DNA from: Oscillospiraceae bacterium
GTDB lineage: Bacteria > Bacillota > Clostridia > Oscillospirales > Oscillospiraceae
Reading direction: 5' to 3'
Assembly: GCA_017440925.1 (NCBI GenBank)
Contig: JAFSAP010000053.1
Coordinates: 1 to 48,564, forward strand
DNA: 48,564 nt
Position numbers and translations under genes: made by a program. The notes under the pieces are model-generated. The model ran no database searches. It worked only from the letters and a program-made list of their open reading frames with translations, and was not told where the DNA came from. Shown here one piece after another: positions 8,476-32,818 of the stretch (positions within the stretch are counted from its first letter, which is position 1; each line of letters opens with the position of its first letter).

Positions 8476-9627
8476 TTATTTCTTCTTTCTGGCATCCTTC
8501 AGCCGGGTACGGGTGGTGGGACGCTGCACCTTGTTGGGCAGAAAGCGGTCATTGATCCTGCCCATCAGCGCCCGGATGTTGAGGCTCTGGGGGCAGACAT
8601 GGCTGCACATATCGCAGCCGACACAGCGGTCAGCGCCCCGCTCCAGGGCGCGGTAAGCTTCCTCCGCGCCTTCCTTGCCCTCCAGAACATCATTATAGGC
8701 AGAAAAGACTTTGGGAATATCGATTTTGCCGTAGCAGCCGTCCACGCAGTACCGGCAGCCGGTGCAGGGGATCCGGGTCTGGGCCTGGTAAATGGAGCGG
8801 ACACGCTCAATGGTCTGCTCTTCTTCATAGCTGAGTTTTTGGAAATCCCGCATAAAGGATACATTGTCCTGCATCTGCTCCATGCTGCTCATGCCGGACA
8901 GAACCATGCAGACTTCCGGAAGGCTGGCGGCATAGCGGATGGCATAGCTGGCAGGGCTGCCGGCAGTCATCTCCTTTAACGCTGCCTCCGGCAGATTCAC
9001 CAGCGTGCCGCCCTTGACAGGCTCCATAACCATGACGGGCTTGCCGTGCTTTTTGCAGACCTCGTAGCACTTCCGGGACTGAACCTTGGGGTCATTCCAG
9101 TCCACATAATTGATCTGCAGCTGTACAAATTCCAGTTCCGGCACTTCCGTCAGGATCTTGTCCAGGACCCGCGCACTGTCGTGGAAGGACATGCCCATGT
9201 GGCGGATCTTTCCTTCCGCCTTCAGCTGTTTGACGATATCGTAGGCATGCAGTTCCTTGAACCGCTCATGGCGAAGGCCGGAATTGGCATGGATCAGGTA
9301 GAAGTCGAAATAGTCCACGCCGCAGCGTTCCAGCTGGCTTTCAAAGAGGGGCAGGATCTCCTCCTCTTTTTCAAACTGGGTGATGGACAGCTTATCCGCC
9401 AGCACATAGCGCTCCCGGGGATAGCGGCTGGTGAGGCAGGTCTTAAGGGCCGCTTCGCTGTTGCCGCTGTGGTAGGGCCGGGCAGTGTCAAAATAGTTGA
9501 AGCCGGCCCCCAGAAAGCAGTCCACCATTTCTGTCACCTGGGCAAGGTCGATCTGGTCATCCATGGTGGGAAACCGCATGCAGCCGAAGCCGAAATTCTT
9601 TTGGATCTCCGGAAAAAAGGGATTCAT
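8476..9627 (-). CDS. Aldo/keto reductase with C-terminal 4Fe-4S ferredoxin-type region
   Basis: 383 residues. The TIM-barrel reductase part carries the usual tetrad: Asp and Tyr in YFDTARPYHSG near residues 45-55, Lys in LADKLS near 78 and His in YLIHANS near 113. The C-terminus has CTGCRYCVDGC near residue 290 and CVGCDMCSHVCPQ near 340, two clusters of cysteines for iron-sulfur centres. This fused form is common in anaerobic Clostridia and probably uses ferredoxin-linked electrons; the substrate is unknown. It ends with a basic tail (RLKDARKKK). It stands alone, with GGGAGGTAACCT upstream of the start at 9627. Confidence 0.87.
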   Translation of the reverse strand: MNPFFPEIQKNFGFGCMRFPTMDDQIDLAQVTEMVDCFLGAGFNYFDTARPYHSGNSEAALKTCLTSRYPRERYVLADKLSITQFEKEEEILPLFESQLERCGVDYFDFYLIHANSGLRHERFKELHAYDIVKQLKAEGKIRHMGMSFHDSARVLDKILTEVPELEFVQLQINYVDWNDPKVQSRKCYEVCKKHGKPVMVMEPVKGGTLVNLPEAALKEMTAGSPASYAIRYAASLPEVCMVLSGMSSMEQMQDNVSFMRDFQKLSYEEEQTIERVRSIYQAQTRIPCTGCRYCVDGCYGKIDIPKVFSAYNDVLEGKEGAEEAYRALERGADRCVGCDMCSHVCPQSLNIRALMGRINDRFLPNKVQRPTTRTRLKDARKKK

Positions 9628-9711
9628 AGGTTACCTCCCGTTTTCTTTTTATCATAACGGAAAAGAGACCGAAAGTAAAGCGGAAACCCTGACCGTTCCT
9701 TATAAATCAGG

Positions 9712-9743
9712 CTGTAGGGGAGGGTCTTGACCCTCCCCTACAG
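9712..9743. repeat. GTAGGGG palindrome, copy 1
   Basis: A perfect inverted repeat: CTGTAGGGGAGGGTC, TT, GACCCTCCCCTACAG. Related sequences lie at 12440, 22079, 32712, 42627 and 43265. It may serve as a terminator-like hairpin but has no T tract. Confidence 0.75.
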
Positions 9744-9772
9744 AGCATATCCCCAAAAAGTTTCCCTTTATA

Positions 9773-9800
9773 TTGACATTCTTTCTCATTTTTGTATAAT
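9773..9800 (+). promoter_or_regulatory. Consensus promoter of the nitrogenase-like/Hyd operon
   Basis: Perfect TTGACA (9773-9778), a 16-base spacer and perfect TATAAT (9795-9800). It is the only clear promoter upstream of the nine-gene operon and would start RNA near 9807, leaving a leader of about 300 bases. Confidence 0.8.
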
Positions 9801-9905
9801 AAAACTATATTGATCTGACACCGAAATTACGGATTGAGGCGGAAGATACAGTTCCAACGAAATAACCTTACCCGCTTTATGCAATGGCACCACATTAAAA
9901 ATCGT

Positions 9906-10020
9906 TGTCATTCCGAGCCAGTGCGCACACTGGCGTGGGAATCCCCATCTTAAGAAGGAGATTGCACCTAAAGGTATTCCCTTTGGTCCCACGTCGGCCT
10001 GCGGCCTCCTCGCAATGACA
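9906..10020. repeat. TGTCATTGCGAG-type dispersed element, copy 1
   Basis: It begins TGTCATTCCGAG and ends CTCGCAATGACA, giving inverted ends. Inside are GCGTGGGAATC and GGTCCCACGTC arms. Copies lie at 25768-25859 and 43374-43498. Similar elements are widespread in unrelated bacteria. This copy sits inside the operon leader. Confidence 0.75.
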
Positions 10021-10052
10021 TGCTATTGCGGGTGTTTTGGCATACCTTCTGG

Positions 10053-10088
10053 AAGCTGCATCGTTTCGCCGGTGCAGCTTTATTTTTT
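10053..10088 (+). terminator. Terminator-like hairpin just before the operon's first gene
   Basis: AAGCTGCATC pairs with GGTGCAGCTT (10 bp with one G-U pair) around an 8-base loop, followed by TATTTTTT. The ribosome site GGAGGAG follows within 12 bases, leaving no room for another promoter, so the genes depend on read-through. Confidence 0.7.
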
Positions 10089-10106
10089 ACCTTTGGAGGA
10101 GATCAA

Positions 10107-10349
10107 ATGGAAACAAGAGTGGCCGTCATCAGTATCATCATCGAAGATCCGGAAGCCGTGCAGGCCGTCAATGACCTGCTGCACCAGTTCAGCGAATTCA
10201 TCATCGGACGGATGGGTATCCCCTACCGGGCCAAGGGCATCAGCATCATTTCCATCGCCATAGATGCGCCCCAGGACAAGATCAGCGCCCTTTCCGGCAA
10301 GATCGGCAGACTTCCCGGCGTTACCGCCAAGGCTGCCTACTCCAAGTGA
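10107..10349 (+). CDS. TM1266-like small regulator ([FeFe]-hydrogenase system type)
   Basis: 80 residues, probably a single ACT/NikR-C-like domain of the TM1266 family, which is often encoded beside hydrogenase maturation genes and is annotated as a putative iron-only hydrogenase system regulator. Visible features are VAVISIIIEDPEAVQAVN at the N-terminus, IGRMGIPYR near residues 33-41, and GRLPGV near 67. It has no DNA-binding domain, so it may sense a ligand or act through partners. The same domain recurs at the C-terminus of the ABC ATPase two genes later. The start is ATG at 10107 behind GGAGGAGATCAA. Confidence 0.8.
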   Translation: METRVAVISIIIEDPEAVQAVNDLLHQFSEFIIGRMGIPYRAKGISIISIAIDAPQDKISALSGKIGRLPGVTAKAAYSK

Positions 10350-10355
10350 CCGCCT

Positions 10356-11366
10356 ATGAAAACAGGACATTTCAGCGCCAGATGGTGCATCCTTCTGTGG
10401 ATCCTCCCGGTGGCAGTTGGCCTGCTGGCCCTGGGCATCGGACGGGTATCCATTCCGGCGGCACAGGTTTTCGCCGCCATTGCCGATGTTTTCACCGGCA
10501 GTCAGACCGTCCCCCAGCTGACCCGGATGACCCTGTGGAACCTGCGGCTGCCCCGGATTTTACTGGCAGCCCTGGCAGGAGCGGGCCTGTCCGTTGCCGG
10601 CTGTGCGTTTCAGAGTTTATTTGCCAATCCTCTTGCCACGCCGGATACCCTGGGTGTCGCCAGCGGTGCCAGCTTCGGCGCGGCATTGGGTCTGCTTCTG
10701 GGCTTTGACCTGGCAGGCGTACAGCTGACGGCCCTTGCCATGGGCGCAGCAGCGGTGGGCCTTACCTGGCTGGCTGGCTCCGGCAAGCGCAAGGGCCTTT
10801 CCTCCATCGTTCTGGCGGGTATTATGATGGGCTCTTTGTTCAATGCCCTGGTATCCCTGGTGAAATTCATGGCGGACGAAGAATCCCAGCTGCCTGCCAT
10901 CACCTACTGGCTCATGGGCGGGCTGAACAACGCCGACTACAAAACTCTGCTGCTGGGAGCGCCTCCCATTCTGGCGGGTATCGCCCTGCTGTTTCTGCTG
11001 CGGTGGCGGATGAACCTGCTGCCCCTCAGCGAGGATGAGGCCCGGGCCTCCGGTGTCAACATCGGTGTCCTGCGGGGCATTACGGTGATCTCGGCCACCA
11101 TGATCACCGCCTCCTGCGTTTCCATGTGCGGCCAGGTGGGCTGGGTGGGCCTGCTGATCCCCCACATGTGCCGGATGAAATTCGGCAGCAACCACCTGTC
11201 TTTGCTGCCTGCCTCCATCAGCTTCGGCGCAGCCTTCCTGATCATCGTGGATACGGTGGCCAGAAGCGCCTCTGCCCAGGAGATCCCCATTTCCATCCTC
11301 ACCGCCATCATCGGCGCGCCGTTCTTTATTGCGCTGATGCGAAAGACCGGGGGGTGGAGCCTGTGA
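10356..11366 (+). CDS. FecCD-type ABC transporter permease
   Basis: 336 residues, highly hydrophobic, with about ten membrane helices expected. ANPLATPDTLGVASGASFGAALG near residues 88-110 is the FecCD/BtuC signature. QVGWVGLLIPHMCR near 253 matches the family's GLIxPHxxR segment that touches the ATPase. Family members import iron-siderophores, heme or cobalamin using a periplasmic-type binding protein, and one is encoded later in this operon at 16800. It starts 6 bases after the regulator's stop, and its stop overlaps the next gene's GTG. Confidence 0.9.
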   Translation: MKTGHFSARWCILLWILPVAVGLLALGIGRVSIPAAQVFAAIADVFTGSQTVPQLTRMTLWNLRLPRILLAALAGAGLSVAGCAFQSLFANPLATPDTLGVASGASFGAALGLLLGFDLAGVQLTALAMGAAAVGLTWLAGSGKRKGLSSIVLAGIMMGSLFNALVSLVKFMADEESQLPAITYWLMGGLNNADYKTLLLGAPPILAGIALLFLLRWRMNLLPLSEDEARASGVNIGVLRGITVISATMITASCVSMCGQVGWVGLLIPHMCRMKFGSNHLSLLPASISFGAAFLIIVDTVARSASAQEIPISILTAIIGAPFFIALMRKTGGWSL

Positions 11367-12424
11367 ACATAACCGTAAGAAACGGCAGCTTCTTCTACCA
11401 GAAGGACACGCCCATTTTTAAAGACATCTGCTTTTCCGCCGGTGCCGGGGAGATCGTGGCCATTCTGGGCCCCAACGGCGCGGGAAAGACCACATTGCTT
11501 CGCTGCATCACCGGCATGCTGAAATGGCGCAGCGGCGAGAGCCTGCTGGACGGAAAATCCATCCACACCATGTCCTCCAAGGAGCTTTGGAGCAGGATCG
11601 CCTATGTGCCCCAGGCCAAGAGTGCATCCTCGGCCTACACCGCCTTTGAAACGGTACTCCTGGGCCGCAGCAGCCATCTGAATGCTTTTTCCGCCCCCAA
11701 ACAGGCCGATCTGGAAAAGGCGAAGGAAGTGATGGAGCTGCTGGGCATCTTCCATCTGGCAGATAAAAAATGCAACGCCATCAGCGGCGGCGAGCTGCAG
11801 ATGGTGCTCATCGCCAAGGCCCTGGCCTCCGACCCCAGGGTGCTGATCCTGGACGAGCCGGAATCCAACCTGGACTTCAAAAATCAGCTCATCGTGCTGG
11901 ACACCATGACCCGTCTGGCTGAAAGCGGCATGACCTGCATTTTCAACACCCATTATCCTGCCCACGCCCTGCAGCGCTCCCACAAGGCCCTGCTCCTGTC
12001 CCGGGGCGGCGACTATGTTTTCGGCGCCACATCTGCCGTGGTAACCAGGGAGAATATCCGCAAAGCCTTCGGCGTGGAGGCGGTCATCGGGGAAATCGAG
12101 ACCCCCGGCAACATTCTGCAAAATGTGATCCCGCTGCAGATCAGCGAATCCATGCCGGAGGCACCGGAAGAGGATGTCCGCAGCATTGCCACCATCACCA
12201 TCATTGCCGGTTCCAACCACATGTCTGATAGGATCAACGGTCTTTTGCACGAATACAACCACCTGATGATCGGCCGCATGGGTATGCCCTACCGGGAATG
12301 CGGACTGTATCTCATCACCGTCACCCTGGACGGCAAGCGTTCCGCCATACAGGAGCTGTCCCACCGGCTGACCATCCTGCCCGACGTAAGTGTGAAAACC
12401 ACCTTCGCCAAGGGGCAGTTCTGA
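11363..12424 (+). CDS. ABC transporter ATPase fused to a C-terminal TM1266-like domain
   Basis: 353 residues from GTG 11363, which overlaps the permease stop in GTGA; an upstream open frame lies inside the permease. ATPase features are Walker A GPNGAGKTT (36-44), Q-loop YVPQAK (81-86), signature ISGGELQ (140-146), Walker B LILDEPESNLD (161-171) and the switch His in NTHYP (195-199). This is the FecE/BtuD type. Residues 273-353 are a second TM1266-like domain (IATITIIAG..., IGRMGMPYREC near 303-313, VKTTFAK), clearly related to the separate regulator at 10107. ABC importers such as MetN and ModC carry C-terminal sensor domains that switch transport off; a similar role here is inference. Confidence 0.88.
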   Translation: MNITVRNGSFFYQKDTPIFKDICFSAGAGEIVAILGPNGAGKTTLLRCITGMLKWRSGESLLDGKSIHTMSSKELWSRIAYVPQAKSASSAYTAFETVLLGRSSHLNAFSAPKQADLEKAKEVMELLGIFHLADKKCNAISGGELQMVLIAKALASDPRVLILDEPESNLDFKNQLIVLDTMTRLAESGMTCIFNTHYPAHALQRSHKALLLSRGGDYVFGATSAVVTRENIRKAFGVEAVIGEIETPGNILQNVIPLQISESMPEAPEEDVRSIATITIIAGSNHMSDRINGLLHEYNHLMIGRMGMPYRECGLYLITVTLDGKRSAIQELSHRLTILPDVSVKTTFAKGQF

Positions 12425-12439
12425 GAACATACCTGTGCA

Positions 12440-12488
12440 AGGACGGCCATCCTGGCCGCTCGCGGGCGGGTTGAAAACCCGCCCCTAC
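12440..12488. repeat. GTAGGGG palindrome family, copy 2
   Basis: GCGGGCGGGTT / AACCCGCCCC with a GAA loop, ending CCCCTACC, and a preceding GGCCATCCTGGCC hairpin. It lies inside the operon, between the ATPase and HydE genes. Confidence 0.65.
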
Positions 12489-12517
12489 CATGAAACGAAA
12501 ACGAAGGGAGAACCAAC

Positions 12518-13573
12518 ATGACCAACCTTCAGCGCATTGACCTGCTGCACGCACAGCACCATCTGGAAAAATCCCAGTGGGTGCAGCTGTTTTCCACCTG
12601 GACAAAAGAAGATCTGAACTATGCCATGGAACTGGCAAGGGAGATCACTGTGAACCGGTTTGGAAAGAAGATCTACTTCCGCGGCATTGTGGAATTTTCC
12701 AACATCTGCAAAAATGACTGCTACTACTGCGGTATCCGCTGCGGCAATAAAAAGGTATCCCGGTACCGGCTAACAGAGGAGGATATCCTCTGCTGCTGCG
12801 CCGAGGGCTACGAGGCCGGTTTCCGCACCTTCGTATTGCAGGGCGGCGAGGATGGCTGGTTTACCGATGAGCGGATGTGCCGGATCATCCGCGCCATCAA
12901 GGAAAAATACCCCGACTGCGCTGTGACCCTTTCCCTGGGAGAACGGAGCCGGGAAAGCTATGAAACCATGTTCCACGCCGGCGCCGACCGGTATTTGCTG
13001 CGGCACGAAACCGCCGACGATGCCCATTACCGCATCCTGCATCCCGAAAGCCTGTCCCTTGCCAACCGGATGCAGTGCCTGAAGGATCTGAAAGAGATCG
13101 GCTACCAGACCGGCTGCGGCATTATGGTGGGGTCCCCCGGTCAGACACCCCAGACCCTTGCCAAGGATTTCCTGTTTATGCAGGAATTCGATCCCCAGAT
13201 GGTGGGCATCGGCCCCTTCCTGCCCCATAAGGACACCCCCTTCAAGGACGAAACCGCAGGAAGCGTGGATCTGACACTGTTCTGTCTTGCTTTAAGCCGC
13301 ATTCTGCTGCCCCAGGTGCTGATGCCCTCCACCACCGCCCTGGGGACGGTGGAAGACGAGGGACGGAAAAAGGGCGTTCTGGCAGGCTGCAATGTCATCA
13401 TGCCGAACCTCTCTCCCCTGGAAGTGCGGAAAAAATACATGCTCTATGACAACAAGGCCGGTACCGGCCTCACCGCCGCAGAAGGCATCGCCATATTGCG
13501 GCGGCAAATGGAAGAGATCGGCTACGAAGTGGTCGTCGGAAGAGGCGACTTCAGAAAGGAGTGCGAAAAATGA
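12518..13573 (+). CDS. hydE: HydE, radical SAM maturase of the [FeFe]-hydrogenase H-cluster
   Basis: 351 residues. The radical SAM motif CKNDCYYC (CxxxCxxC) lies near residues 66-73 after [10 protein letters not shown]. Then come [16 protein letters not shown] near 108, SLGERS near 142, MVGSPGQT near 205 and [18 protein letters not shown] near 269, which fit HydE rather than biotin synthase or PylB. HydE acts on the HydG-made iron-CO-CN complex during H-cluster assembly. No hydG and no hydrogenase is in this window. Its place beside nifHDK-like genes is unusual. The start has AAGGGAGAACCAAC; the stop overlaps the next start as ATGA. Confidence 0.88.
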
Positions 13574-14334
13574 TCAAGTTGGCTGTTTACGGAAAGGGCG
13601 GCATCGGCAAATCCACCACCGTTTCCAACCTGTCCGCCGCCCTGGCGGATATGGGCTATAAAGTGATGCAGATCGGCTGCGACCCCAAGGCAGATTCCAC
13701 CGTCAGCCTCCATGGTAAGGAAAAAGTGGATACCGTTCTGGACTTAGTCCGCACCCGGAAGAACGACTTCACGCTGGAGGATATGGTCACCGAGGGCTAC
13801 GGCGGTGTTATCTGCGTGGAGGCCGGCGGCCCCACGCCGGGTCTGGGCTGCGCCGGACGGGGCATCATTGCCGCCCTGGAAAAACTGGCGGAAAAGGGCG
13901 CTTACGAAACCTACAAGCCCGATGTGGTCATTTATGACGTTCTGGGCGACGTGGTCTGCGGCGGCTTCTCCATGCCCATGCGGGGCGGCTATGCCGACAA
14001 GGTATTTGTTATCACCTCCGGCGAGAACATGGCCATCCATGCCGCCGCCAACATCGCCATGGCTGTGGAAGGCTTCAAAGGAAGAGGCTATGCCCAGCTG
14101 GGCGGCATCATCCTCAACCGCCGCAATGTGAAAAACGAGGAAGAAAAGGTGGCTGAACTGGCAGAGGATATCCATTCCAGTGTGATTGCCACCCTCAGCC
14201 GCAGCGATACGGTGCAGGAGGCAGAGGACTTACGCAAGACCGTTGTGGAAGCTTTCCCGGAAAGCGAAATGGCCGCCGAATACCGGGCTCTGGCCAGAAC
14301 GCTGCTGAACATCTGCGGGGTGGAAGTATGCTGA
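13570..14334 (+). CDS. NifH-like nitrogenase reductase homologue (Fe protein)
   Basis: 254 residues from ATG 13570, which overlaps the HydE stop. It has the P-loop [11 protein letters not shown] (7-17) and CDPKADST (37-44). Both [4Fe-4S] ligand cysteines of the Fe-protein family are present: GLGCAGRG (C94) and GDVVCGGF (C130). NifH/BchL/CfbC proteins are homodimers that pass electrons to a partner complex with ATP hydrolysis. The partner here is presumably the NifD/NifK-like pair that follows. Sequence conservation is strong and the reductase looks active. It is slightly short of NifH (about 290 residues), lacking part of the C-terminal extension. Confidence 0.9.
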
Positions 14335-15659
14335 AGCGTGTGACTGCCCCCAAAGAAGTAAAGAGTGTGGGCATTCCCATCGGGAACGCCGCTTTCCCCA
14401 GTCCCTTTTCTTCCGGACTGGAATACGCCTCCCCTGCCCGGGGCACCTGGAACATCGTCCACACCGGTATGCTGATCCCGGAGGCCCATGAGATCTTCGT
14501 CTGCGCCGCCGGCTGTCTCCGGGGCGTGGTGCTCACCGCCGCAGAGCTGAATCTTTCCCACCGGTTCTCCACCGTGGAAGTGAAGGAAAATAACCTTTTG
14601 GACGGCGACATGGAAGAACTGGTCATCGAGGGTGTTTCCGACATTCTGGAAAAACTGCCCAAGAAGCCGCCTGTGGTGCTGGTCTATACCAGCTGCGTCC
14701 ACCATTTTGCCGGCTGTGACCTGGATATGATCTATGGGGAACTGCGGCTGCGGTACCCCGGCATTGACTTCGTGGACTGCTACATGAACCCCATCATGCG
14801 CAAAAGCGGTCTGACGCCCGATCAGCTGATGCGGTCCCGGCTGTATATGCCGCTGAAAGCGCGCCCCATTCAGAAAGGCAGCGTTGCCATCATTGGCAGC
14901 GACCTGCCTACGGATCCCGACAGCGACCTGGTGCAGCTGCTACGGAAAAACAACCTCAGAATTCATGAAATCACTTCCTGCAAATCTTACGAAGAATACC
15001 AGGAAATGGCGGAAAGCGAATGCTACATCTCCTGCTATCCCGCTGCAAAACCCGGCGGCGATATGCTGGCGCAGCGGCTGGGCAGCAAACACATCTACGT
15101 TCCCTTCAGCTTCGACTATGCCGAAATCGAGGAAGGTTTCACCCATCTGGCCGAAACCTTGGGGGTGGCTGCCCCGGACTTTGCAGGAAAGCGGGAAGCT
15201 GCTCAAACTGCGCTGAAAGAAACTCTGGCCGTGGTGGGTTCTGCCCCCATTGCCATCGACTATACCTATTGTCCCCGTCCCCTGGGACTGGCAAAACTGC
15301 TGCTGGATGCCGGATTCAGCGTCAAACGGGTGTACCTGGATGTTGTCACCGGCGAGGAAAAGCAGGCATTTACGTATTTAAAAGAGAATTACCCCCATCT
15401 GGAACTCTATCCCACCGTGCATGCCAGCATGCGTTTCCTGGCAGAAAAGGAACCCACAAACTTCCTTGCCATCGGCCAGAAGGCCGCCCACTTCTTAAAT
15501 ACCACCCACTTCGTCAATGTGGTGGAGGGCGGCGGTATGTTGGGTTACCAGGCCATTTTCAAAACCCTGGAACTGATGCAGGAGGCGCACCGTGAGGAAA
15601 AGGATATGCGGAACCTCATCCAGATCAAGGGTATGGGCTGCGGAGGATGCTGCGGATGA
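14328..15659 (+). CDS. NifD-like nitrogenase component 1 homologue with a CGGCC tail
   Basis: 443 residues; starts 7 bases before the NifH-like stop. Candidate cluster ligands are C59 and C63 (FVCAAGC) and C123 ([11 protein letters not shown]), where NifD holds its P-cluster. C236 in [12 protein letters not shown] lies where NifD Cys275 (LVHCYRS) binds the FeMo cofactor, but no matching His442 is seen in the C-terminal [12 protein letters not shown] region. The protein ends MGCGGCCG, three cysteines that could form another metal site. It belongs to an uncharacterised nitrogenase-like branch. It is not a nitrogen-fixing NifD: nifB, nifE and nifN are absent from the window. Substrate unknown. 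Confidence 0.78.
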
Positions 15660-16798
15660 AACAGACATCAAGAATCATTTCCACCCATTCTGCCGATGTA
15701 TTCGGCGTATGCTCTGCCCTCTTTGAGCTGGGGGGTATGACCATCATGCACGATGCCTCCGGCTGCAACTCCACCTACACCACCCATGACGAACCCCGGT
15801 GGTACGATATGGAGAGCATGGTTTACATTTCCGGTCTTTCCGAAATGGAGGCCATCATGGGCGACGATGAAAAGCTCATCGGCGATATCGTGGCAGCGGC
15901 AGAGGACTTAAAACCCAAATTCATTGCCGTGGCCGGAACCCCCATTCCCACCATGACCGGCTTTGACTTTGGTGCCGTTGCGGAGCTGATTGAACAGCGC
16001 ACCGGCATCCCTGCCTTCGGCTTTTCCACCACCGGCATGAACACCTATGTCCATGGAGCCTCCCTGGCGCTGGAGGCAATTGCCCGCCGGTTTGCAGACC
16101 GGGATGCTGTGAAAACCCGGATGCCTTCTGCCAACATCTTAGGTCTGACCCCCCTGGATTTCACCGTCAACGGAAGTGACAGCGCCATTGCGCAGTTTCT
16201 GGAGGAGGCAGGATTCACAGTACTGTCCCGGTGGGCCATGGGAAGCACACTGGAAGATTTGGCACAGGCCGGCAGCGCCCATGTGAATCTGGTGGTTTCC
16301 GCCACGGGACTGGCTGCTGCCAAGGCACTGCAGGAAACCTTCGGCACACCTTATGTGGTGGGCGTGCCTATGGGGGCAGACTATTCCGCTCTGGTACGCA
16401 GCGCGCTGAAAACCGCTGCCGCCACCGGTGAAAACCAGTTTCCCGTCTGTAGCCTTACCGGCGGCGATACCGTCATCATCGGCGAGGGTGTGACCTCCCT
16501 GTCCCTGGCCTCCGCCCTGGAACTGTCCTGCGGAAAACCCGTCCGGGTGATCTGTCCTACGGAATGTGACTCCGGAATCCTGCGTACAAAAGATATCCCC
16601 GTCACCTGCGAAGAGGAAATTGACGAGGCAATCAAAGGTGCAGCCTGCATCATCGCTGACCCCCTGTTCAAACCCATCTGTCCCGAGGGCGCAAAGTTTG
16701 TACGGCTGCCTGCGGAAAACTTCTCCGGCCGGATCTGGCGGGAGGAAATTCCCAATCTGATCACTCACTTTGAAGACTTTGCAAAAGAGGTGCTGTAA
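15656..16798 (+). CDS. NifK-like nitrogenase component 1 homologue, second subunit
   Basis: 380 residues from ATG 15656, which overlaps the previous stop (ATGA); GGAGGA ends 9 bases upstream, which favours this over the ATG at 15647. N-terminal C19 (FGVCSAL) and C37 (DASGCNS) match two of the three P-cluster cysteines of NifK. The third position reads AGTPIPTMTGFDF without Cys. GFSTTGMNTYVHG near 120-132 and LTGGDTVIIGEG near 265 are typical of this fold. It probably pairs with the NifD-like protein. The missing ligand implies a cluster other than the [8Fe-7S] P-cluster, perhaps [4Fe-4S]. Confidence 0.76.
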   Translation: MKQTSRIISTHSADVFGVCSALFELGGMTIMHDASGCNSTYTTHDEPRWYDMESMVYISGLSEMEAIMGDDEKLIGDIVAAAEDLKPKFIAVAGTPIPTMTGFDFGAVAELIEQRTGIPAFGFSTTGMNTYVHGASLALEAIARRFADRDAVKTRMPSANILGLTPLDFTVNGSDSAIAQFLEEAGFTVLSRWAMGSTLEDLAQAGSAHVNLVVSATGLAAAKALQETFGTPYVVGVPMGADYSALVRSALKTAAATGENQFPVCSLTGGDTVIIGEGVTSLSLASALELSCGKPVRVICPTECDSGILRTKDIPVTCEEEIDEAIKGAACIIADPLFKPICPEGAKFVRLPAENFSGRIWREEIPNLITHFEDFAKEVL

Positions 16799-16799
16799 T

Positions 16800-17894
16800 A
16801 TGAAAAAGTTTTTTTCCTTGCTTCTGGTCTTTGCTCTGCTGCTGTCCGGCTGCAGCGCTGCCGCCCCGGCTGCGGAAACAAGAACCATCACCGACCAGGA
16901 CGGTTTTGAGGTAGTGCTTCCAAAAGAAATCAACCGAATCGTGGTCTGTGACATTCTGCCTCTGCCCAGTGTGCTGGCAGTGTTCTTCGATTCTGCAGAA
17001 AAGATCGTGGGCATGTCCGGCACCAGTATGAACGCCGCCGAAAACAGCCTGCTGGGTCAGCTGTATCCGGAAATTCTGGAAGCGGAAACCGGCTTCATCA
17101 ACGGTACCACTGTCAATGCCGAAGAACTGATGAAGCTGCAGCCCGATGTGGTATTTTACAACGCCTCCCGGAAGGAGCTGGGAGAGAACCTGCGCAAGGC
17201 CGGTTTCCCGGCAGTGGCCATTTCCGTCAACAAATGGGAGTATGACTGCATCGAAACACTGAACCAGTGGATCGGCCTTCTCAGCCAGATGTTCCCGGAC
17301 AACGACAAGACGGAACTGGTCAAAACCCACTCAGATGCCATGTACGCCCTGGTACAGGAGCGGATTGCCGCCATCCCCGAAGGTGAAAAAGAGGATGTGT
17401 TCTTCCTGTACCAGTACAGCGACACCAACATCCAGACCTCCGGCGGCAAATTCTTCGGACAGTGGTGGGCAGATGCCATCGGCGCAAGAAATGTGGCCGG
17501 AGAGCTGTCCACCGACAATTCCGTGGCTGTGAACTTAGAGCAGATCTACGCCTGGGATCCCTCGCTGATCTTCATTACCAATTTCACCACCGCAGGCCCG
17601 GAGGACCTGTATAACGGCACTGTGGGCAATGACGACTGGAGCGCGGTATCCGCTGTGCAGAACCGAACCGTCTACAAAATGCCCCTTGGCATGTACCGCA
17701 GCTACACCCCCGGTGTGGATACGCCCGTCACCCTGCTGTGGCTGGCAAAAACCGCCTATCCGGAACACTTTGCGGATATCGACGTGATCGCAGAAACCAA
17801 AACCTACTACAAGGAAGTTTTTGGCATTGATCTGACAGATGACCAGGCCGCATCCATCTTCGCCCCGGCAAAAGACGCCGGCACCGGCTTCTAA
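16800..17894 (+). CDS. ABC transporter substrate-binding lipoprotein (FepB/BtuF class)
   Basis: 364 residues from ATG 16800, one base after the NifK-like stop. The signal peptide ends in the lipobox LLSGC with Cys18 as the lipid anchor. The mature protein has the two-lobe, helix-linked pattern of siderophore/heme/B12 binding proteins: ITDQDGFEVVLPKEINRIVV, MKLQPDVVFYNAS and WDPSLIFITNFT. It should deliver a metal complex to the FecCD permease and ATPase at the start of the operon. The ligand is unknown. Its place between the nitrogenase-like subunits and HydF ties import to the same pathway. Confidence 0.87.
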   Translation: MKKFFSLLLVFALLLSGCSAAAPAAETRTITDQDGFEVVLPKEINRIVVCDILPLPSVLAVFFDSAEKIVGMSGTSMNAAENSLLGQLYPEILEAETGFINGTTVNAEELMKLQPDVVFYNASRKELGENLRKAGFPAVAISVNKWEYDCIETLNQWIGLLSQMFPDNDKTELVKTHSDAMYALVQERIAAIPEGEKEDVFFLYQYSDTNIQTSGGKFFGQWWADAIGARNVAGELSTDNSVAVNLEQIYAWDPSLIFITNFTTAGPEDLYNGTVGNDDWSAVSAVQNRTVYKMPLGMYRSYTPGVDTPVTLLWLAKTAYPEHFADIDVIAETKTYYKEVFGIDLTDDQAASIFAPAKDAGTGF

Positions 17895-17907
17895 AGGAGG
17901 AACGCCT

Positions 17908-19098
17908 ATGAGTATGAACAACACCCCCTCCGGCGAACGCACCCACATCGGCTTCTTCGGCCGCCGGAACGCCGGAAAGTCCAGCGTGGTCAACGCCGTC
18001 ACCGGACAGGATCTGGCAGTGGTCTCGGATGTGAAGGGCACCACCACCGACCCGGTCAGTAAGGCCATGGAGCTGCTGCCCCTGGGCCCTGTCATGATCA
18101 TCGACACCCCCGGCTTCGATGACGAGGGCATGCTGGGCGAGCTTCGTGTCAAAAAGACCCGGCAGGTGCTGAACAAGACGGACATCGCCATTCTGGTGGT
18201 GGATGCTTCCGAAGGGATGAAAGACTGCGACCGGCAGCTCATTCAGCTCTTCCAGGATAAGGAGATCCCCTACATCATCGTATACAACAAAGCCGATCTA
18301 CTGGCGGAAATTCCCGCAGCAGAAGAAAACAGCCTCTATGTCAGCGCTCTCCGGGGGACAGGCATTTTCGAACTGAAAGAGCGGATGGCCCGGCTGAAGC
18401 AGACCGGCACCGAGCGCAAGCTCATTTCCGACAAACTGCATCCCGGTGATTTTGTGGTGCTGGTGGTTCCCATCGACAAGGCCGCTCCCAAGGGCCGCCT
18501 GATCCTGCCCCAGCAGCAGACCATCCGGGACATTCTGGATGCCGGAGCCGTGTCCATCGTGGTGAAGGAAACGGAACTGGCCCAAACTCTGGAAACGCTG
18601 GGCACAAAGCCCGCCATGGTCATCACCGACAGCCAGGTATTTTCCTCCGTGTCCAAAATCGTGCCGCCGGACATTCCGCTGACCTCCTTCTCCATTCTCA
18701 TGGCCCGGTACAAGGGGCTGCTGGAGGAAGCCGTCAAAGGGGCTGCGGCTGTGGAAACCCTGAAAGATGGGGACACCGTCCTCATTGCCGAAGGCTGCAC
18801 CCACCACCGGCAGTGTGACGATATCGGCACTGTAAAGATCCCGAACTGGCTGAGAAAGTATACCGGCAAGGACATCACCATCAGAACCTGCTCCGGCACG
18901 GAGTTTCCCGACGATCTTTCCCCCTATGCCCTGGTGATCCACTGCGGCGGCTGCATGCTGAACGAGCGGGAAGTCCGCTACCGCACCAAATGCGCTGCTG
19001 ACCAGAAGGTGCCCATCACCAACTACGGCACTCTGATCGCTTATCTGAACGGGATCCTGAAGCCGAGTGTGGCCATTTTTCCCGGTCTGCTGCCATAA
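17908..19098 (+). CDS. hydF: HydF, GTPase scaffold for [FeFe]-hydrogenase maturation
   Basis: 396 residues from ATG 17908, chosen for the preceding TAAAGGAGGAACGCCT. The GTPase domain has GRRNAGKSS near 18-26, GTTTDPV near 45, DTPGFDDEG near 65 and NKAD near 130. The C-terminal cluster domain has CTHH near 307 and HCGGC near 350, the CxH...HCxxC pattern that holds the [4Fe-4S] cluster. HydF carries the di-iron precursor and loads apo-hydrogenase. HydE is in the same operon; HydG is not. It is the last gene before the terminator. Confidence 0.92.
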   Translation: MSMNNTPSGERTHIGFFGRRNAGKSSVVNAVTGQDLAVVSDVKGTTTDPVSKAMELLPLGPVMIIDTPGFDDEGMLGELRVKKTRQVLNKTDIAILVVDASEGMKDCDRQLIQLFQDKEIPYIIVYNKADLLAEIPAAEENSLYVSALRGTGIFELKERMARLKQTGTERKLISDKLHPGDFVVLVVPIDKAAPKGRLILPQQQTIRDILDAGAVSIVVKETELAQTLETLGTKPAMVITDSQVFSSVSKIVPPDIPLTSFSILMARYKGLLEEAVKGAAAVETLKDGDTVLIAEGCTHHRQCDDIGTVKIPNWLRKYTGKDITIRTCSGTEFPDDLSPYALVIHCGGCMLNEREVRYRTKCAADQKVPITNYGTLIAYLNGILKPSVAIFPGLLP

Positions 19099-19270
19099 GC
19101 GAAATGTATATCAAAAAAGCTGATAATTGCACAGGCGTTCATCTGAAAACCGTATTTCACATTTGTACTGCTTTGTGGTATCCTATGGTCAGCTTGGATC
19201 GGCGCAGATTTGCCAGCATCTGCTCCGGTTCGTAACTCTGTAATTTACATGTCGCCTTCATCCTTTTTCT

Positions 19271-19300
19271 AAAAAAACCGCCCGTAAGGGCGGTTTTTTT
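19271..19300. terminator. Bidirectional terminator between hydF and the AEC transporter
   Basis: AAAAAAACCGCCC, a TAA loop, GGGCGGTTTTTTT. It ends both the plus-strand operon and the minus-strand transporter gene. The 170 bases between hydF and this site hold no gene that I can see. Confidence 0.92.
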
Positions 19301-19321
19301 CATGCAGCAGGGGCCTTTCCG

Positions 19322-20347
19322 TTATGGGATCGCCAGCAGTCCCAGCTGCATCAGCAGACACACCTGGGCAAAAATGGTCAGCACCGACAGCAGACTGCTC
19401 CACACCACGATCTGGGTGGCCAGCTGCTCGTCGCCGCCCATCTGTCCCGCCATGATGGCGCTGGACACTGCTGCCGGAGAACCAAACAGGGCGATCAGTG
19501 TGGGATATTCATTGACACCGCAGGCCAGCACCCCTGCCTGGGTCAGCAGCCAGGCGCCGCCGATGCCCAGCACCGGCGCCAGAACGATCCGCCAGAGGGT
19601 TCCTGTGAGGATCTCCCGGAACAGTCCCCGGACTGCTGAGAATGCAAACTGTCCGCCCAGGATCAGCAGGGCCAGGGGCGTTGTGACGGATTTCAGATTC
19701 TGCAGGGCCTTATAAACAAAGGGTGCCTGGGTTTTCAGAGAAAAGACCACTTCTCCAAAAACCATCCGCTGCCCCTCCCGGCAGGCAACGCAGGCCATGC
19801 CCAGCACTGCACCCAGGATCAGGGGATTTTGAGCGATATTTTTCAGCACCCGGCTCAGGCTGTGGGCTTGCCGGGAATGGGGATCTGCAAACACACTGAG
19901 GGACACCACCCCCAGCACATTGAACACCGGGATCACAAAGGAGGAGGTCACTGCCACCAGTGCGGATGCCTCCGTGCCTCCCAAAGCCTCTGCCAAGGCG
20001 ATCCCCAGAATGGCAAAATTGCTGCGGAAGGTGCTCTGCCAGATCACGCCCCGGCGCCGGGACTCTGGTGTGACGGCCACCGCTGTGACGAGACCCAGCA
20101 CAAAGATCAGCAGCACCACCGCAACGCAGTAGAGGACCATCTCCCAGGGGATATCGGAAAACGTCTCGATATCATACACATTGAGAAACAGCATCACCGG
20201 CAGGCACACATGAAACACCAGCCAGTTTCCGTTTTTCAGAAAAGCCGCCGACAGAAAGCCCCGGCATTTCAGCCAGTAGCCCAGTAAGATCAGCAGCACC
20301 ACCGGTGCCACGGCGTTCACCGCCGCCCCCAATACCGAAATACCCAT
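19322..20347 (-). CDS. AEC (auxin efflux carrier) family transporter
   Basis: 341 residues from ATG 20347; this start has GGGAGGC upstream, while a longer frame has no such site. It is very hydrophobic, with about ten membrane helices in two halves of five, each half starting with a broken helix: APVVLLILLGYWLKCRGFL near residue 11 and NPLILGAVLGMAC near 170. FRSNFAILGIALAEALGG near 108 and FGSPAAVSSAIMAGQMGGDEQLA near 290 are typical of the family. AEC proteins move small carboxylates such as malate or malonate; the substrate is unknown. A single gene, divergent from malQ. Confidence 0.87.
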   Translation of the reverse strand: MGISVLGAAVNAVAPVVLLILLGYWLKCRGFLSAAFLKNGNWLVFHVCLPVMLFLNVYDIETFSDIPWEMVLYCVAVVLLIFVLGLVTAVAVTPESRRRGVIWQSTFRSNFAILGIALAEALGGTEASALVAVTSSFVIPVFNVLGVVSLSVFADPHSRQAHSLSRVLKNIAQNPLILGAVLGMACVACREGQRMVFGEVVFSLKTQAPFVYKALQNLKSVTTPLALLILGGQFAFSAVRGLFREILTGTLWRIVLAPVLGIGGAWLLTQAGVLACGVNEYPTLIALFGSPAAVSSAIMAGQMGGDEQLATQIVVWSSLLSVLTIFAQVCLLMQLGLLAIP

Positions 20348-20440
20348 CGTTTCTGCCTCCCTGTTTTTTTGCCTATCATAATCCATTTTTCCGGAAAGGT
20401 AAAGTCCCTTTCCCGGCTGGTTTATTTTCCCCTCTGTCCC

Positions 20441-22078: not shown

Positions 22079-22135
22079 GTAGGGGAGGGTTTTCAACCCT
22101 CCCGCAATACGGGCGGGCAAAATGCCCGCCCCTAC
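22079..22135. repeat. GTAGGGG palindrome family, copy 3
   Basis: Outer GTAGGGG / CCCCTAC arms enclose two hairpins, GGGAGGGTT / AACCCTCCC and GGGCGGGCA / TGCCCGCCC. It is convergently placed between malQ and upp. Confidence 0.75.
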
Positions 22136-32711: not shown

Positions 32712-32818
32712 AGTAGGGGCGATCAATGGTCGCCCGTGCGGTATATACCTGGCGTCCAACGGAATCCGATGCGAATCCGCTGCCGGTTACTGCCGGGCGG
32801 GCACTGCCCGCCCCTACA
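32712..32818. repeat. GTAGGGG palindrome family, copy 4 (extended)
   Basis: Starts GTAGGGGCGA with a GCGATCAATGGTCGC hairpin and ends CGGGCGGGCACTGCCCGCCCCTAC. An internal arm GGATTCGCATCGG is also present. Confidence 0.65.

Follow-up and report, generated by a model that had tools for sequence, protein, structure and literature searches.

Why should the genes for two [FeFe]-hydrogenase maturases, HydE and HydF, lie in one operon with an importer and three nitrogenase-like proteins? This question is raised by the stretch of DNA analysed here (the window, 48,564 nucleotides in full), which belongs to a metagenome assembly that is 68% complete. The features of the locus are as follows.

9773..9800, + strand: promoter-like site TTGACA-16-TATAAT, 12/12 consensus matches (a consensus match only)
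9813..9857, + strand: conserved structured leader RNA, a hairpin of three short helices with two tandem G-A internal loops between them
10052..10081, + strand: terminator-like hairpin, immediately upstream of the first gene's ribosome-binding site
10107..10349, + strand: TM1266-family small protein, putative iron-only hydrogenase system regulator (TIGR03959, 118 bits, cut-off 60.8)
10356..11366, + strand: FecCD-type importer permease (PF01032, 267 bits)
11363..12424, + strand: ABC importer ATPase with a fused C-terminal TM1266 domain (PF00005, 114 bits; PF21699, 60 bits), starting with GTG at 11363
12518..13573, + strand: HydE radical-SAM H-cluster maturase (TIGR03956, 553 bits, cut-off 254.6)
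13561..14334, + strand: NifH-like ATP-dependent reductase (PF00142, 297 bits; 13570 is a possible alternative start)
14328..15659, + strand: NifD-like subunit (PF00148, 58 bits)
15647..16798, + strand: NifK-like subunit (PF00148, 110 bits)
16800..17894, + strand: importer substrate-binding protein, probably a lipoprotein (PF01497, 58 bits)
17908..19098, + strand: HydF H-cluster scaffold GTPase (TIGR03918, 569 bits, cut-off 325.6); 17908 is a more likely start than the ORF start at 17839

All nine genes of the operon (10107-19098, +) were found, with gaps of at most 93 bases or short overlaps between them, and the genes on either side (8476-9627 and 19322-20386) lie on the opposite strand. Family profiles confirmed the nine genes listed in the initial annotation, and their arrangement is kept across relatives. 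The permease matched 16 NCBIfam families, scoring below the cut-off for every one. Four promoter-like sites were found in 9600-19400 against 3.8 expected in shuffled sequence, and the site at 9773..9800 was the only one with 12/12 matches.

Conservation of the cluster was investigated by scanning public genomes for relatives of the D subunit, which gave 335 stretches, of which the best 80 were kept; 57 of the kept loci had more than 5 kb of upstream and 3.5 kb of downstream sequence. Permease, ATPase and binding protein were all present in 50 of these 57 well-flanked loci, and a TM1266-like domain was present in 55. hydE lay inside the operon in 19 of the 57 and hydF in 17, so that one or the other was outside it in most. 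The placement of the NifHDK-like genes (the trio) and the binding protein gene between hydE and hydF, as in the window, was also seen in 11 of 85 loci. Judging by their titles, the majority of the trio genomes were assembled from metagenomes, and the incompleteness of the window genome could suggest that the genes are neighbours by chance or by an assembly artefact. Chance adjacency had been named in the initial annotation as an outcome that would undo its proposal. Both explanations are extremely improbable, because the core arrangement recurs in 50 of the 57 well-flanked loci, which come from numerous assemblies, and in Clostridium carboxidivorans P7, whose chromosome is complete, trios lie beside hypFCDE. 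An apparent TM1266-HydE fusion in locus L253 was rejected, since the two reading frames differ.

Co-occurrence with hydA and hydG, proposed as a check in the initial annotation, was examined in 52 hand-chosen genomes out of 84 trio genomes, the loci being 46 hand-picked from 80, and in 26 controls hand-picked from the 141 trio-less genomes of the window genome's order. A HydA domain and HydE were each found in 52/52 trio genomes, and HydF was found in 50/52 (missing from G152 and G171). HydG scored above its cut-off in only three trio genomes (G150, G163 and G175), versus 19/26 controls; it was found neither in the 68% complete window genome nor in 49 of the 52 trio genomes overall. HydE, HydF and HydG were all present in 19/26 controls, and hydE, hydG and hydF adjoined one another in 15 of the 19 HydG-bearing controls. 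Seven controls had a HydA domain with none of HydE, HydF and HydG above cut-off.

A survey of 147 genomes of the order gave a similar picture. Among 73 HydE-bearing genomes, nine lacked HydG, and six of the nine were all six trio genomes, while the trio occurred in 0/64 HydG-bearing genomes (Fisher p 4.9e-7, uncorrected for kinship). G111, from the window genome's genus, has HydE, HydF and HydG and no trio. Three genomes had HydE with neither HydG nor trio: G088, whose contig runs out just past hydE where the assembled sequence ends; the low-quality genome G033 (76% complete); and G104 (99% complete), which carries TM1266-hydE-hydF lacking hydG and remains an unexplained exception. A HydE fragment in G051 scored below the cut-off. 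From the loss of HydG alongside retained HydA and HydE, we infer that the trio very probably acts in H-cluster assembly in HydG's place. The locus resembles the classical HydE-HydF-HydG pathway in that HydE and HydF score far above cut-off, a HydA domain is present and a TM1266 gene comes first (TM1266 lies upstream of hydE in 24/28 HydG-bearing regions), but HydG is replaced in the operon by the NifHDK-like trio and the importer.

A further likeness to some classical operons is the leader RNA. In the hairpin at 9813..9857, nine of 11 pairs covary; 87.3% of the alignment cells were paired versus 74.1% in shuffled alignments, with 45 double changes versus 16.8. The leader RNA model R1 gave 52.6 bits on the window, which was in its training set. 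A terminator-like hairpin was present in 28/29 leaders versus a mean of 0.2 in shuffles, and base pairing is possible between the leader RNA's 3' end and the 5' arm of the hairpin at 10052..10081. Searches of the window against Rfam 15 found nothing that reached the gathering score, nor anything at E<=5 for 9760-10130, and no known riboswitch was found there. Model R2 matched (E<0.01) upstream of TM1266-hydE in 8/28 HydG-bearing regions, of hydG in G175 (L256), of a lone hydF (L222) and of a lone hydE (L152). The leader RNA was found before two of the 33 stand-alone hydE or hydF genes tested in trio genomes; searches of 20 HydA regions (~3 kb each) and of Mogibacterium-type and Clostridium loci did not detect it. 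In 53 other loci (0.92 Mb), the best R2 match had an E value of 0.1. With its covarying structure, one functional gene set downstream and an expression platform, the leader is a candidate cis-regulatory RNA.

In the initial annotation's proposal, the importer brings in a metal complex whose reduction or assembly serves either a hydrogenase or a new cofactor. The second option, in which a cofactor for an enzyme other than HydA would be made with borrowed HydE and HydF, fits the unusual cofactors made by nitrogenase-like proteins and the frequent location of hydE outside the operon. To examine HydE, 46 proteins from trio genomes (including L017 and L061, whose genomes also bear HydG) were compared with 20 others (19 from HydG-bearing genomes and that of G104, which lacks HydG). 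The two sets shared 81 invariant positions, none of them discriminating; eight positions conserved in the comparison set varied in trio genomes, and one position showed the reverse. No sign of an altered HydE substrate was seen, as no position separates the sets. Of the HydA regions from trio genomes, 15/16 showed the second cysteine motif and 12/16 the third, versus 2/2 and 2/2 in HydG-bearing controls. These misses include a wrongly picked ORF at L184, and the third pattern missed L172, L176 and L177 from trio genomes as well as L190 (from G019, which lacks HydE, HydF and HydG); the first pattern missed most proteins in every set. The presence of HydA and HydE in every trio genome examined, the undifferentiated HydE, the second and third HydA motifs found in most trio regions and a leader shared with some classical hydE-hydG operons make a new cofactor very unlikely. 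The hydrogenase half of the earlier proposal is strongly supported by the retained HydA, HydE and HydF, the missing HydG and the shared leader, and it is plausible that an imported metal complex serves maturation.

The trio itself was set apart from the Nif, Bch and Cfb groups by curated family cut-offs. Nitrogenase cut-offs were not reached (nifH 323 versus 394 bits; K subunit at most 66 versus 505), nor were those of CfbCD (CfbC 318 versus 402; methan_mark_13 24 versus 268 for the K subunit) or DPOR/COR (BchL 204 versus 345, BchX 166 versus 331, BchB 53 versus 490), and the D subunit had no NCBIfam match at 1e-3. C97 and C133 of the NifH-like protein are invariant in 79 aligned sequences, C40 of the NifK-like protein is invariant in 77, and C59, C63, C123, C151, C218 and a C-terminal CxxC of the NifD-like protein are at least 95% conserved in 80. 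The AlphaFold model of the NifD-like subunit shows a nitrogenase/NifEN fold, and the closest PDB sequences to the NifK-like subunit are NifE first and BchB second. The trio thus shares its fold and an ATP-driven NifH-type reductase with NifEN, nitrogenase, DPOR, CfbCD and methylthio-alkane reductase, but it falls below the tested curated cut-offs and differs from them in gene context; methylthio-alkane reductase is recognised by its own clade in trees and a sulfur-metabolism context, and the trio lies among hydrogenase maturation genes.

A related published description is that of a NifHEN-like 'red clade' from Coprococcus catus and Dorea longicatena, with two closely linked copies; in that 2012 account, a single sentence suggests an association of the C. 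catus copies with hydrogenase maturation proteins (PMC3464626). The trio shares this setting, and the clade's trait of two P-cluster-type cysteines in D and one in K may correspond to the conserved C63, C123 and C40, the numbering having been matched by reading rather than by alignment. The paired copies perhaps equal the trio B/hyp/trio A arrangement of C. carboxidivorans. HydG loss, importer/Hyp exchange and a leader RNA do not appear in the part of that account consulted.

We investigated what supplies the trio by comparing genomes with and without the importer. Some trio genomes carry HypFCDE and a second trio in place of the importer. Two trios flank hypFCDE in four Clostridium genomes, and in Mogibacterium-type cassettes a second trio of their own adjoins hypFCDE. 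HypD was found in 8/8 importer-less versus 2/74 importer-bearing trio genomes (p 1.3e-9, uncorrected for kinship), the exceptions being L052 and L055; a tree-aware test on 5 pairs gave p 0.06-0.25. Distinct trio genomes for this test numbered 84 (52 + 34 - 2, L069 and L070 being contigs of G039 and G017), and the importer state of L051 was judged on a 5.2-kb contig. HypF, HypC, HypD and HypE scored above curated cut-offs (one protein each), and the motifs PRIC, MC and GCPVC were found in 12 loci, as in the HypCDEF system that assembles Fe(CN)2CO for [NiFe]-hydrogenases. Unlike that system, the [NiFe]-hydrogenase large subunit (PF00374, E<=1e-10) was not found in eight Hyp-bearing non-Clostridium genomes (G169, G176, G179, G181, G204, G208, G209 and G212; it was found in G188 and G192), and hypA and hypB had no match in cassette loci L110-L113 and L124-L127. 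The exchange and the gene counts suggest that a cyanide-bearing iron unit is supplied to the nitrogenase-like enzyme, and we lean slightly towards the importer and the Hyp module feeding one common step. Support for the importer's role is indirect, because HypFCDE and a second trio take its place in some genomes.

The binding protein has C18 in 95% of 66 sequences. Its closest PDB entry is 4ovk, whose listing gives no ligand, followed by HI_1472, described as molybdate-binding, and by homology molybdate or iron chelates are indicated as readily as a cyanide complex; the fold of the protein singled out no ligand. Iron chelates, haem, nickel or molybdate are the cargo of FecCD/PF01497 importers and of the binding proteins closest to this one, which would also suit a salvage role, in which the trio reductively breaks an inert imported complex and releases iron or ligand for hydrogenase maturation, HydG having been lost for another reason; the ATPase-fused TM1266 domain could then tie uptake to demand. 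Salvage appears unlikely, as it leaves unexplained both the absence of HydG alongside the trio and the substitution of HypFCDE for the importer. A more substantial alternative, possible though not favoured, is that the trio makes CO alone, for example by ATP-driven reduction of CO2 at an Fe-S centre, with cyanide coming from HypEF or import and HydE and HydF assembling the rest. Nitrogenases can reduce CO2 to CO, and the hypFCDE set flanked by two trios in four Clostridium genomes is a cyanide maker that has no known anaerobic CO source. However, importer-bearing genomes would still need a cyanide source, none of which was found here, and the second trio beside hypFCDE in Mogibacterium-type cassettes would leave two trios with the same job.

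Taken as a whole, the evidence is probably best explained by a trio route, often RNA-controlled, that is fed by the importer or by Hyp proteins and replaces HydG; the chemistry that follows is speculative. The FecCD-type importer would supply an iron unit already bearing cyanide, perhaps with CO too, and in other genomes HypFCDE and the second trio would supply it. At the expense of ATP, the NifH-like protein would feed low-potential electrons to the NifD/K-like pair. This pair would convert the iron unit to an equivalent of HydG's Fe(CO)2(CN) synthon, probably through the addition of a carbonyl produced by reduction. This product would be the substrate of HydE; from there on HydE and HydF would act as they do in the HydG-dependent pathway, with HydF loading HydA. 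In many of the bacteria concerned, the route may be controlled by the leader RNA and terminator.

A wider reading, which we put forward as speculation, is that a nitrogenase-like class makes an Fe(CO)2(CN)-type synthon, a reaction not known for the nitrogenase superfamily, from a precursor made by HypFCDE and a second trio in producers and taken up by FecCD-type importers in others. A new riboswitch class would sense the supply of H-cluster precursor and control both HydG and HydG-free pathways. Since the cyano-iron precursor would be made by some bacteria and imported by others, an iron cyanide/carbonyl complex would be a shared gut nutrient.

These results bear on hydG-less acetogens. A 2022 study, consulted in part, reported HydE and HydF and, by motif, no hydG in C. 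carboxidivorans, ljungdahlii, ragsdalei, coskatii and AWRP (PMC9431212). Its authors offer no settled explanation. For C. carboxidivorans they point to a putative HydG-like gene (radical SAM, ~450 residues, cysteine motif atypical) and alternatively to a supply of free CO and cyanide, and they state that a second HypC/D/E set in this species 'deserves further investigation' (PMC9431212). In C. carboxidivorans, the one of the five compared here, a hypFCDE set sits between two trios. The sole match to the HydG model (E<=1e-30) in this species scored 198 bits against a cut-off of 312 and lies behind thiG-like genes; it was rejected as HydG and read as ThiH. Our literature search found no paper tying the trio cluster to HydG loss.

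A nitrogenase-like machine, rather than HydG, appears to build the iron-carbonyl-cyanide core in many bacteria of the gut and in some clostridia that live free. The trio route could explain how HydG-less bacteria manage, and it offers a testable answer to the acetogen puzzle, at least for C. carboxidivorans (PMC9431212). The nitrogenase superfamily may thereby gain a new reaction, HypFCDE is indicated to be able to serve something besides [NiFe]-hydrogenase, and hydrogenase maturation gains a candidate riboswitch. The route also bears on the anaerobic source of CO for hydrogenase cofactors (PMC12134894); if it is as proposed, its chemistry could also account for the CO ligand of [NiFe]-hydrogenase in anaerobes, and HydG would be unsafe as the sole marker for predicting [FeFe]-hydrogenase maturation in gut bacteria.

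The nine genes that the initial annotation had named at positions 10107-19098 are present, and profile searches confirmed their families. Its reading of them as an operon was also borne out, and neighbouring genes on the opposite strand bound the unit. The gene order is as follows.

10107-19098, + strand: TM1266, importer, hydE, NifHDK, binding protein, hydF

HydE (553 bits; NCBI cut-off, 254.6) and HydF (569 bits; NCBI cut-off, 325.6) passed widely. The NifH, NifD and NifK relatives (the trio) are superfamily members, none of which reached any curated NCBIfam family cut-off; the NifH-like protein scored 323 against 394 for nifH, 318 against 402 for CfbC and 204 against 345 for BchL, and the NifD-like subunit (D) had no NCBIfam match at 1e-3.

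D was present in six of 147 genomes sampled from the order Oscillospirales. A scan of public genomes found 335 stretches encoding a D relative, the best 80 of which were kept as loci L012-L091; by title, these came from Oscillospiraceae, Lachnospiraceae, Mogibacterium, Clostridium and other assemblies. In 57 well-flanked loci, the sequence extended over 5 kb before and over 3.5 kb beyond the D gene, and the recurrence of the core gene set in 50 of them upheld the view that the adjacency is not due to chance. The permease, ATPase and binding protein occurred together in 50/57, a TM1266-like domain in 55/57, HydE in 19/57 and HydF in 17/57. All three importer genes were absent from seven of the 57 (L033, L040, L045, L056, L078, L082 and L089), and L051, a 5.2-kb contig on which NifH directly follows TM1266, is an eighth importer-less locus. 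In the HydG-bearing controls, hydE, hydG and hydF were adjacent in that order in 15 of 19 genomes, and TM1266 lay upstream of hydE within the fetched stretch in 24 of 28 HydG-bearing regions. The window operon has the same frame as this classical operon, with hydG exchanged. The full layout, with hydE before the trio and hydF after it, is found in a minority of loci (11/85); at the others, hydE and/or hydF lie outside the operon, or the contig ends.

The initial annotation had proposed co-occurrence with hydA and hydG as a check. We compared 52 of the 84 distinct trio genomes with 26 trio-less genomes of the same order, both sets being hand-picked. Co-occurrence with hydA was found, a HydA domain being present in 52/52 trio genomes and 25/26 controls; co-occurrence with hydG was rare, HydG exceeding its cut-off in only 3/52 trio genomes (G150, G163 and G175) versus 19/26 controls. 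HydE was detected in 52/52 versus 19/26, those 19 being the HydG-bearing controls, and HydF in 50/52 versus 19/26. In the order sample (n = 147), HydE exceeded its cut-off in 73 genomes and HydG in 64, all 64 of which also had HydE. Nine genomes had HydE without HydG, and six of them are exactly the six trio genomes (Fisher p = 4.9e-7, kinship ignored). The other three are G088, in which the contig ends directly after hydE; G033, a genome at 76% completeness; and G104, searches of which gave no HydG and no NifHDK-like trio. G104 (99% complete) carries TM1266, HydE and HydF in a row with no HydG between them (L150, 7903-11200), an unexplained exception. In the genus of the window genome, G111 has HydE, HydF and HydG and lacks the trio.

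A HydA-type domain (330-346 bits) was also observed in G003, G006, G014, G015, G019, G021 and G036, all at least 93% complete, with no HydE, HydF or HydG over cut-off; in G003, HydA cysteine motifs two and three are retained. C. carboxidivorans, whose chromosome is complete, encodes HydA domains, HydE and HydF, and its sole match to the HydG model at E ≤ 1e-30 comes after thiG-like genes and reads as ThiH. Another HydG-like candidate, of atypical kind, is named for this species in PMC9431212.

A conserved RNA element was found in the operon leader.

9813-9857: conserved 45-base RNA element, downstream of a perfect promoter-like site and upstream of the first gene

The element folds as a hairpin containing two tandem G-A loops. 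Across 30 sequences, 87.3% of cells were paired (shuffled controls, 74.1%; slid controls, 27-49%), and double changes numbered 45 versus 16.8 in shuffles; RNAalifold independently recovered eight of the same pairs. For 45 distinct sequences, in an alignment fitted to the model, the values were 87.6 versus 75.0% paired and 67 versus 26.3 double changes. Model R1, trained on 30 sequences including the window, detected the element at E < 0.01 in 43 of 82 distinct operon loci searched (the 30 of the training set and 13 new), some of the 82 being cut off before the leader; the Mogibacterium-type and Clostridium loci among them had none. The window sequence (9760-10130) had no Rfam match. A terminator-like hairpin lies downstream in 28 of 29 leaders tested versus a mean of 0.2 in shuffles, and the pairing of its 5' arm is stronger with the 3' end of its own element (mean, -9.5 kcal/mol) than with those of other leaders (-7.5 kcal/mol); none of 1000 shuffles was as low as the observed mean for the 29 leaders. 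Judged from sequence, the element and terminator have the layout of a candidate transcriptional riboswitch.

Outside the operon, the element (E < 0.01) precedes TM1266-hydE in eight of 28 HydG-bearing regions, with hydG following hydE in those eight genomes; one of the eight, L227, was first found with R1 and was already in the model when scored. In trio genomes it precedes two stand-alone genes, hydE in L152 and hydF in L222, out of 33 such regions, and in G175 (L256) it precedes hydG itself. A search of 20 HydA regions did not reveal it, and the best match in the 53 other loci scanned (0.92 Mb) reached only E = 0.1. We interpret the RNA-marked genes as a single regulon for H-cluster maturation.

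At two loci, a second copy of the element occupies the TM1266-permease gap (L076, 5976-6020; L081, 5979-6024). In the window, 292 bases separate the element from the start codon, versus 141-146 bases in L013, L014, L019 and L020, and the window leader contains a repeat-like stretch with near-inverted ends (9905-10020; TTGTCATTCCGAG ... CTCGCAATGACA); the longer leader looks as though something had been inserted. Separately, a short element containing (A/G)CCC(G/T)CCCCTAC occurs in intergenic copies, partly as inverted pairs, at 9714-9741, 12477-12488, 22079-22135 and 32806-32817; the motif has 10 matches in the window at up to two mismatches versus 4.6 expected.

Ten of the 84 distinct trio genomes carry HypD: 8/8 importer-less, 2/74 importer-bearing (the exceptions L052 and L055) and 0/2 whose importer could not be assigned (L050 and L064) (p = 1.3e-9, kinship ignored). 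After the first six HypD matches had proved importer-less, HypD was predicted for L045 and L051, and both were positive. On the D tree, importer absence requires six changes, at least five of them forced by well-supported branches. Over five independent pairs, HypD changed in the same direction in a mean of 4.4 and never in the opposite one, which was not significant (p = 0.06-0.25) because the pairs are too few. The hyp genes form a cassette.

L110, L111, L113, L124 and L126 (complete): second NifHDK-like trio, hypF, hypC, hypD, hypE
L112, L125 and L127: the same cassette, cut by contig ends

In four Clostridium genomes, the operon-type trio directly follows this cassette. We predict that hypCDEF is likewise flanked by trios in C. 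ljungdahlii. HypF, HypC, HypD and HypE exceed their cut-offs (one protein of each scored), and 12 loci retain the PRIC, MC and GCPVC motifs. No [NiFe]-hydrogenase large subunit was found at E ≤ 1e-10 in the eight Hyp-bearing non-Clostridium genomes, and HypFCDE therefore seems to have no [NiFe] client there. The importer and the hyp cassette look like two ways of supplying one thing. The simplest candidate is a cyanide-bearing iron unit, HypEF being the source of cyanide and HypCD the carrier of Fe(CN)2CO (PMC12130793; PMC12134894). The nearest solved relatives of the binding protein are 4ovk, the molybdate-binding HI_1472, and then iron and nickel proteins, a mixture that indicates no single ligand.

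A tandem pair of HypB-like GTPase genes, 37-41% identical to C. carboxidivorans HypB, was observed a few kilobases upstream of TM1266 in 14 Mogibacterium-type loci; HypD is absent from most of those genomes.

L023, L030, L032, L035, L036, L039-L043, L052-L054 and L078: tandem HypB-like genes, at importer-bearing and importer-less loci

PMC9431212 notes a second hypCDE set in C. carboxidivorans. In addition to the trio cassette, this species has a hypC, hypD and hypE set that lies with hypA, hypB and the [NiFe]-hydrogenase (L114, 1472500-1492400). The two sets may share the cassette's hypF, because L114 had no hypF match and PMC9431212 lists a single HypF.

Alignment of the trio proteins revealed conserved C97 and C133 in the NifH-like protein, which by analogy with the family would be the cluster cysteines; C59, C63, C123, C151, C218, a C-terminal CxxC and histidines 45, 54, 125 and 126 in D; and C40 in the NifK-like protein. 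The predicted model of D has a nitrogenase/NifEN fold (mean pLDDT, 84). HydE of trio genomes and of the comparison set share 81 invariant positions; eight positions are conserved in the comparison set only and one in trio genomes only. HydE of trio genomes probably receives the same substrate as its counterpart, because no position is conserved differently between the two sets.

PMC9431212 reports five acetogens without a hydG meeting its motifs, and proposes for them either an atypical HydG-like gene or free CO and free cyanide as a source; PMC12134894 calls the anaerobic source of CO the most pressing open question. In the literature covered, mainly open journal papers, we found none joining these topics with NifHEN-like proteins associated with hydrogenase maturation proteins (PMC3464626), as far as the accessible texts go. 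In the classical pathway, tyrosine is the source of all five H-cluster ligands (PMC3105041), and the trio route would be expected to differ in this respect. On the best reading, the trio would deliver an Fe(CO)2(CN)-like unit; we infer both its starting material and its gain of CO. The operon is very likely a HydG-free route to the H-cluster.
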